The notes under the pieces are model-generated. The model saw nothing but the letters and a program-made list of their open reading frames with translations, made no database searches and had not been told where the DNA came from. From positions 1 to 33,174 of the forward strand of contig NZ_FODY01000036.1 in NCBI RefSeq assembly GCF_900110485.1: a DNA stretch of 33,174 nt, written 5' to 3'. The translations under genes were made by a program, and so were the position numbers. The stretch is from Propionispora vibrioides (GTDB taxonomy: Bacteria > Bacillota > Negativicutes > Propionisporales > Propionisporaceae). Below, piece after piece: positions 22,894 through 24,359 of the stretch. Positions within the stretch are counted from its first letter, which is position 1; the number at the start of each line of letters is the position of its first letter.

Positions 22894-22922
22894 TTGACAG
22901 TACCGTGAAAAATGTCTAAAAT
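22894..22922 (+). promoter_or_regulatory. Promoter of amt
   Basis: TTGACA (22894-22899), a 17-bp spacer and TAAAAT (22917-22922): a near-consensus housekeeping promoter. The start of transcription would be near 22929, leaving a 90-nt leader. Confidence 0.8.
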
Positions 22923-22950
22923 GATGTAGTAAAATTAACATAACGAAAAT

Positions 22951-22999
22951 GAGGCAATGAAGCCTTCGCTATATGCGAGGGCTTTTTCTGTTTTTTTTT
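22951..22999 (+). promoter_or_regulatory. Leader attenuator of amt with ANTAR-like hexaloop hairpin
   Basis: Two mutually exclusive hairpins are visible. The first pairs GAGGC (22951-22955) with GCCTT (22962-22966) around the six-base loop AATGAA, which has A at position 1 and G at position 4, the signature of ANTAR antiterminator targets. The second pairs GCCTTCGC (22962-22969) with GCGAGGGC (22975-22982) and is followed by TTTTTCTG and a long T run, so it is an intrinsic terminator 20 nt before the amt start codon. The first hairpin uses the left arm of the terminator. An AACGAA just upstream (22942-22947) could be a second loop, but its stem is weak. Confidence 0.7.
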
Positions 23000-23019
23000 A
23001 AGTTTAAGGAGGTTGTCGG

Positions 23020-24294
23020 ATGGAGCAGGTAATGGCAATCAGTGCGGGAGACACAACGTTTGTATTAGTTTCGGCGGCATTGGTCATGTTTATGATCCCC
23101 GGGGTGGCTTTTTTTTATGGCGGCATGGTGGGACAGAAAAATGTATTGAACACACTGACCCAGGTATTGGTTGTGCTGGCCATTGTATCAATAGAGTGGG
23201 TTGTGTTTGGCTACAGTTTATCCTTCGGACCGGATCATGGCGGGTTGATCGGCGATATGAGCATGCTGGGGCTGCAAGGGGTAGGGCCTGCCGGCAATGC
23301 CGATTATGCTCCGACTATTCCGCATTTGGTATTTGTTATTTTTCAGATGATGTTTGCCGTGATTACACCGGCGTTGATTTCCGGTTCTGTCGTAGAAAGA
23401 ATGCGGTTTCCCGCGTTTGTTGCCTTCACATTTATCTGGAGTGCTGTGGTGTATAATCCGCTGGCTCACTGGGTTTGGGGCGTAGGTGGCTGGCTGCGGG
23501 AAATGGGGGCGTTGGATTTCGCCGGCGGTACGGTGGTTCATATCAGCTCAGGCATCGCCGGTCTGGTTGCCTGTGTCATGCTGGGCAAGCGCCGTAAGCA
23601 GACCCGGCCGCATCATTTGCCTATGGCCGTGCTGGGAGCCGCTATGCTGTGGTTTGGCTGGTTCGGTTTCAATAGCGGCAGCGCATTGGCGGCCAATGCG
23701 CTGGCGGCTAACGCATTTTTAGTGACCCATCTTTCGGCGGCAGCCGGGGCGGCAGCCTGGCTTGTCGTGGAATGTCTGCATGAGGGAAAACCCTCGCTGC
23801 TTGGCCTGATCAGTGGCGCGGTGGCCGGTTTGGTTGCCATTACGCCGGCGGCCGGTTTTGTCACGGCCATGTCTTCGATTATTATCGGACTGTTGTCCGG
23901 CGGTATTTGTTATTTTTCCGTTACGATTATGAAGGGCCGCCTGGGCTATGACGATTCGCTGGACGCTTTTGGCATTCACGGGGTCGGCGGTATCTGGGGT
24001 GCGGTGGCTACCGGATTGTTTGCCACAACATCGGTCAACAGTGCCGGGGCCGACGGCTTATTCTACGGTAACGCCGCCCTGCTGGTACCGCAGCTTGTAG
24101 GTGTGCTGGCTGCCTGCGCTTTCAGCGGCATAGCAACCTATGTCATCATGAAGCTGTTAGGCGCTGTCATGGCCATCCGTACAGAGGCGGCAGTCGAAAG
24201 CACGGGCCTTGATATCAGCGAACACGGGCAGGAAGCGTATGAACTGACGCTGGCTACGGCGTTGCCTCTGCCCAAAGAGAAGTTTTTGGTCTAG
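23020..24294 (+). CDS. amt: Ammonium transporter, Amt family
   Basis: A 424-residue membrane protein with eleven expected segments that conducts ammonium or ammonia into the cell under nitrogen limitation. Family motifs are visible: MIPGVAFFYGGMVGQKN near residue 26, NPLAHWVWGVGGWL near 146, DFAGGTVVHISSGIAGL near 166 with the first pore histidine, GWFGFNSGSALAANALAANAF near 210, and DAFGIHGVGGIWGAVATGLFA near 310 with the second. There is no neighbouring PII (glnK/glnB) gene, which is unusual. AAGGAGG precedes the ATG. Expression is probably controlled by the leader terminator. Confidence 0.95.
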   Translation: MEQVMAISAGDTTFVLVSAALVMFMIPGVAFFYGGMVGQKNVLNTLTQVLVVLAIVSIEWVVFGYSLSFGPDHGGLIGDMSMLGLQGVGPAGNADYAPTIPHLVFVIFQMMFAVITPALISGSVVERMRFPAFVAFTFIWSAVVYNPLAHWVWGVGGWLREMGALDFAGGTVVHISSGIAGLVACVMLGKRRKQTRPHHLPMAVLGAAMLWFGWFGFNSGSALAANALAANAFLVTHLSAAAGAAAWLVVECLHEGKPSLLGLISGAVAGLVAITPAAGFVTAMSSIIIGLLSGGICYFSVTIMKGRLGYDDSLDAFGIHGVGGIWGAVATGLFATTSVNSAGADGLFYGNAALLVPQLVGVLAACAFSGIATYVIMKLLGAVMAIRTEAAVESTGLDISEHGQEAYELTLATALPLPKEKFLV

Positions 24295-24314: not shown

Positions 24315-24359
24315 AGAAATACCTGCTTTTAAGCCTCGCGCTTAAAAGCAGGTATTTCT
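24315..24359. terminator. Bidirectional terminator between amt and MFS gene
   Basis: AGAAATACCTGCTTTTAAGC (24315-24334) pairs with its exact complement at 24340-24359 around CTCGC, a perfect 20-bp stem between two convergent genes. Confidence 0.9.

Follow-up and report, generated by a model that had tools for sequence, protein, structure and literature searches.

The leader of the ammonium transporter gene amt of Propionispora vibrioides is very probably a transcription attenuator run by a two-component ANTAR antiterminator, in a single-hexaloop form with one promoter-proximal hexaloop per terminator. The gene lies in a stretch of 33,174 nucleotides (contig NZ_FODY01000036.1), the whole of which is here called the window. 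ANTAR control of amt is already known, and what differs here is the architecture of one hexaloop per terminator.

Alternative structures in the amt leader

The amt gene and the features ahead of it are as follows:

22894–22922, plus strand: promoter, TTGACA (22894–22899), 17 nt, TAAAAT (22917–22922), with 11 of 12 consensus matches
22939–22951, plus strand: weak candidate for the remnant of a first hairpin, CAT-AACGAAA-ATG, or a one-pair stem around AACGAA
22951–22966, plus strand: putative antiterminator hairpin GAGGC-AATGAA-GCCTT with an A1/G4 hexaloop (from sequence, fold, covariation and loop signature)
22959–22999, plus strand: intrinsic terminator, stem 22959–22985 and U-rich tract 22983–22999 (from fold and shared-base covariation)
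23006–23012, plus strand: ribosome-binding site AAGGAGG of amt (from sequence)
23020–24294, plus strand: amt, ammonium transporter of 424 aa, without an adjoining P-II gene (PF00909, 5.6e-125; TIGR00836, 463 bits against a cut-off of 343)

From the consensus promoter the RNA is predicted to start at about 22928–22930, and the hairpin begins 28 nt past the -10 box. Its arms, GAGGC (22951–22955) and GCCTT (22962–22966), form five pairs around the loop AATGAA (22956–22961), a six-base loop in which A1 is 22956 and G4 is 22959. Folded alone, the hairpin has an energy of -5.7 kcal/mol, which was equalled by 7 of 200 shuffles, and in the fold computation it forms if the RNA stops at the 3' arm of the hairpin. 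The terminator has 11 pairs, two of which are G-U (one within the stem, one at its end), followed by TTCTGTTTTTTTTT. The full leader has this terminator as its minimum-energy fold (-18.3 kcal/mol, z -4.3; z -5.5 for the terminator alone), and the U tract runs to 22999, which leaves 20 nt before the ATG of amt at 23020. Sequence and fold thus agree with a sequence-only reading made earlier, which had proposed both a terminator at this distance from amt and a five-pair AATGAA hairpin on the shared GCCTT arm. Because the terminator takes up bases 4–6 of the hexaloop together with the 3' arm of the hairpin, the two structures are mutually exclusive.

Comparison of 69 distinct units bears on both structures. 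The middle base of the shared arm, given between its partners, reads G-C-G in 56 units, A-T-A in 12 and A-C-G in a single unit, which breaks the upstream pair only. Since a change of the shared base is accompanied by matching changes in both helices, this covariation among sequences supports the antiterminator hairpin as well as the terminator.

The bare pattern is not rare. In resampled windows, an A1/G4 hexaloop hairpin of at least three pairs overlapping a strong terminator occurs by chance at 0.5 per 33 kb, and the window holds one further such overlap elsewhere; the case therefore rests on comparison and not on the single site. This chance rate is what speaks for a plain constitutive terminator with a fortuitous competing hairpin, a reading that we regard as barely credible. 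The same loop recurs before amt in dozens of genera on varied stems (GGC/GCC, GGAC/GTCC, AAGC/GCTT, AGAC/GTCT), and the shared base covaries with both helices, so that comparative sequence data already contradict it.

An Rfam search of the window gave only 5S rRNA above the gathering score, with no family matching the amt leader, and permissive settings on the leader gave only scores far under gathering. The 5S rRNA gene lies at 223–339, near the contig start (RF00001, 87 bits). Beyond amt, at 24315–24359, a 20-pair hairpin lies where amt and an MFS transporter gene converge; it is called as a minus-strand terminator, is nearly symmetric and is probably bidirectional.

Distribution of the unit and of ANTAR proteins

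The sequence-only reading had assigned the loop to an ANTAR protein and had named the lack of any such protein in the genome as grounds against the assignment. Two proteins of the genome lie above the Pfam ANTAR cut-off. Both are REC-ANTAR response regulators, and each adjoins a HisKA_2/HATPase kinase with PAS-type matches. The first (L001, G000:C6) has PF00072 and PF03861 above cut-off, keeps the phospho-acceptor Asp54 and aligns to EutV of PDB 6WW6 at 3e-43. In 6WW6 a set of EutV residues contacts or positions the hexaloop (numbering of Walshe 2022, PMC8934654), and L001 retains R142, K143, K149, E160, Y164, M172 and R175 of these, differing at four positions (K147R, R168Q, N173S, R177S). 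The second (L002:1477–2055, from G000:C12) has a degenerate ANTAR domain in which Y164 is changed to H, R142 to Q and R175 to Q, and E160 and R168 are also lost. Because L001 keeps most of the EutV contacts and L002 has lost most of them, L001 appears from its residues to be the likelier regulator of amt. The L002 regulator, which has its own HisKA_2 kinase, is conserved in two sister genomes; its target may be another RNA, or it may have no RNA target.

Besides the amt of the window, which is contig C36 of the genome, there is a second amt, on contig C33, with a P-II gene downstream. Its leader contains two hexaloop/terminator units in series, the first being GGC-AATGGC-GCC with its terminator and the second GGAC-AATGAC-GTCC with its terminator. 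The absence of a P-II gene beside amt, which had been offered as fitting control at the RNA level, is true of the amt in the window but fails as an argument and was rejected, given that the amt of C33 has both a P-II gene and the same kind of leader.

For searches of other genomes we used a covariance model, R1, built from ten units, in which the terminator pairs are modelled and the hairpin pairs are not. It was trained on the A1/G4 loop, so loop conservation among its matches is partly by construction. In the P. vibrioides genome itself, the only matches of low E-value are the two amt leaders. No R1 unit was found upstream of glnA or gltB in this genome; relatives do carry the unit ahead of glutamine synthetase and P-II. 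A weak match at G000:C3:81946-82002 has an AATGCG hexaloop, a good promoter and a U tract, but its terminator is imperfect and the following gene matches no Pfam family. The pattern GGCAANGNNGCC has 155 matches in the genome, against 82 for a reversed control pattern, and a strong overlapping terminator was present at 0 of 30 loci examined among the 155.

All eight amt leaders in four genomes of the family contain an A1/G4 hexaloop hairpin. Across 300 genomes of the class, R1 finds units in 82, and the ANTAR family is present in 240. Units occur in 81 of the 240 ANTAR-bearing genomes versus 1 of the 60 ANTAR-less genomes (Fisher 1.1e-8). One genus (g65) accounts for most of the ANTAR-less genomes that have amt, so that there are fewer independent events than the Fisher values imply. 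This genus has neither an ANTAR protein nor a unit, and the other genera of its family have both, which is a clean contrast resting on few independent events, and the p-values need caution. Two genomes, G021 and G102, have units without a detected ANTAR protein; both are only 87–88% complete.

Among 76 leaders examined, 48 precede amt, and others stand before genes for P-II, glutamine synthetase, family-3 amino-acid binding proteins, a permease of the purine/cytosine family and LamB/YcsF. An exact-pattern scan of named genomes gave 22 matches, of which 14 were examined and 11 proved to be leaders from Sporomusa, Pelosinus and related organisms, with amt downstream in nearly every case; these organisms are also where the matches with a promoter and a terminator are found. 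Two Paenibacillus matches and one in Odoribacter, without promoter or U tract, look like chance and were set aside. At one locus (L073, G044:C9:195848-195897) the hexaloop/terminator is palindromic and matches R1 on both strands, with an ammonium transporter next on one of them.

The loop bias of R1 training is avoided in a set of amt leaders without an R1 match, to which ANTAR-bearing genomes contribute 37 and genomes whose ANTAR match is missing or marginal contribute 18. An A1/G4 hexaloop overlapping a terminator was found in 30 of the former versus 1 of the latter (Fisher 7.5e-8), the sole exception being in G102, a genome 88% complete. In these leaders, bases 1 and 4 of hexaloops that overlap a strong terminator are A and G in 49 of 84 cases, the next combination reaching 7, and loops of 4, 5, 7 or 8 bases with A1 and G4 have 0–3 occurrences. 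Divergent units stand before amt in one family (f15; L176, L177, L179, L181), with loops AACGAG, AACGGG and AAAGAG and stems such as TGCAC/GTGCA and TACAC/GTGTA.

These comparisons bear on the possibility that the alternative hairpin belongs to a ligand- or protein-operated attenuator unrelated to ANTAR proteins. An unknown RNA element is conceivable given that the leader has no Rfam match, and the binding of an ANTAR protein is something that we infer. Against such an element, the units track ANTAR proteins across the class and are missing from the ANTAR-less genus within its family, the loop is the exact ANTAR signature, and the downstream genes are mostly nitrogen genes, as for reported ANTAR targets (PMC3369931). 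We consider it very improbable. The ANTAR reading, in which the unit is the target of a REC-ANTAR regulator, is thereby supported.

One hexaloop per terminator

Firmicute and proteobacterial ANTAR RNAs have been described as dual stem-loops (PMC8164766), and a first hairpin (P1) before the same terminator is defining for this published form. The eut leaders have two hexaloop hairpins per terminator with a linker of 5–12 nt; induction is abolished when P1 is removed and falls drastically with a linker of 3 or 14 nt (PMC3369931). EutV and NasR antiterminate efficiently only with both hairpins and bind a single hairpin weakly (PMC3369931; PMC8934654; PMC7496416), at about 12 uM for NasR with the second hairpin, P2, alone (PMC7496416). 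This published need for two hairpins counts against a single-hexaloop reading.

The sequence-only reading had found only one convincing hairpin in the window leader, an assessment upheld here, and had treated a second as the usual expectation, naming AACGAA at 22942 as its only possible site. This motif has no stable fold (0 kcal/mol): its stem would have a single pair if the loop has six bases, or three pairs if the loop has seven. A functional P1 at 22942 was rejected on the unstable fold and the wrong spacing, and the element at 22939–22951 is probably not functional as P1. The sister species (L004/L006) reads AATGAA in place of AACGAA, so that a change at loop position 3 is tolerated, which is weak evidence.

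The expectation itself does not hold for the lineage. The same promoter-to-hairpin layout was found in 56 leaders of the class and in 24 of 30 further leaders, with a median distance from the -10 box to the hairpin of 23 nt in the 56 and of 19 nt in the 24, which belong to the R1-independent set. The RNA ahead of the hairpin is typically about 12–16 nt, and about 22 nt in the window, with starts predicted from consensus promoters; so short an RNA would leave no room for P1. P1 of at least three pairs occurs in 0 of the 56 leaders with a located promoter, and P1 of at least two pairs in 2 of the 56, at the chance level of 2.5 in shuffles. In the R1-independent set, P1 candidates were present in 3 of 30 leaders, scattered and unconserved, one of them inside the promoter. 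Neither in the window, where P1 has no stable fold, nor in the 56 class leaders does a second A1/G4 hairpin with a short linker stand upstream of the same terminator, and its absence is the rule in the lineage and not a defect of the window copy.

Two or more hexaloops in total are present in 41 of 48 amt leaders, mostly one per terminator. Leaders with a single hexaloop are those of the window amt, of its ortholog in the sister species and of three others. In two further single-unit leaders a second loop starts with G. Second hexaloops that start with G and keep G4, GAAGGC and GATGAT, are those of the second unit in L043 (G063) and L093 (G020), and their sequences suggest that a second unit can do without A1. 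In the tandem leaders the loop-to-loop spacing is at least 44 nt. When polymerase reaches terminator 1, hexaloop 1 is the only one in the transcript; if the leader is switched at all, a single hexaloop must therefore be enough at that point.

We have weighed these data against a reading of the leader as the usual dual-hairpin ANTAR element, in which AACGAA at 22942 would be a very weak, protein-stabilised P1 and, in tandem leaders, unit 1 would act as P1 for unit 2. It gains from the retention of A1 and G4 of AACGAA in the sister species, and from the 41 of 48 amt leaders with at least two hexaloops, by which two would be nearly conserved. We nevertheless think it unlikely: AACGAA lacks a stable stem and abuts P2 with no linker, when an eutP linker of 3 or 14 nt strongly cut induction (PMC3369931); P1 with three or more pairs is missing throughout the 56 leaders; unit 2, transcribed after terminator 1, could be of no help at terminator 1; and the loops of tandem leaders lie at least 44 nt apart. 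For the examined genomes of the class (Sporomusa, Pelosinus, Lucifera and relatives) we regard it as probable, with somewhat less assurance than for the window leader, that ANTAR proteins antiterminate at each terminator through one promoter-proximal hexaloop, that two hexaloop-terminator pairs often stand in series, and that P1 is dispensable in nature.

Proposed mechanism and relation to known systems

By default the leader would fold into the terminator and RNA polymerase would halt ahead of amt. The kinase adjoining L001 would phosphorylate the regulator, presumably under nitrogen limitation, a signal suggested by the target genes, and a dimer of the phosphorylated regulator would bind the A1/G4 hexaloop as it emerges from the polymerase. 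By holding the GAGGC/GCCTT hairpin, the bound regulator would block the terminator and amt would be transcribed. Each terminator would have one promoter-proximal hexaloop, most amt leaders having two units in series and the window amt one. The direction of the switch and its mechanism are taken from EutV (PMC3369931, PMC8934654).

The system resembles Enterococcus faecalis eut (EutV/EutW) in that the 3' arm of the A1/G4 hairpin doubles as the 5' arm of an intrinsic terminator, in the pairing of a REC-ANTAR response regulator with a histidine kinase, and in the control of nitrogen genes. Unlike eut, with P1 and P2 for each terminator, the lineage of the window has one hairpin per terminator, usually repeated with its own terminator, and the hairpin in this class typically begins about 12–16 nt past the predicted RNA start. 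ANTAR-type RNAs ahead of ammonium transporters were published by Ramesh 2012 (PMC3369931), whose targets comprise ammonium transporter, P-II, glutamate synthase and nitrogenase leaders, with 13 ANTAR elements in six transcription units of Desulfotomaculum acetoxidans. Those nitrogen leaders are alike in preceding ammonium transporters and in having several elements per transcription unit; they were found by a dual-hairpin covariance model. The Klebsiella nasF leader (NasR, NIT-ANTAR) also sets a hexaloop antiterminator against an intrinsic terminator but, unlike the system of the window, responds to a one-component nitrate sensor and has two hairpins for full affinity. The layout with a single hexaloop per terminator was not found in a search confined to the open-access literature.

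Walshe 2022 (PMC8934654) redefined the binding unit as a single hexaloop, with the EutV dimer binding one hairpin at a time, asked why both hairpins are needed, and called for work on single hexaloops. The leaders of this class amount to a natural experiment on that question of whether a single hexaloop suffices: conserved attenuators in which each terminator has one hexaloop number in the dozens, and Sporomusa ovata and Pelosinus fermentans are among the cultured organisms that carry some of them. These leaders suggest, too, that ANTAR targets can escape a search based on a dual-hairpin model, and that ammonium uptake in the class may be placed under RNA-level control by two-component systems, with or without P-II.
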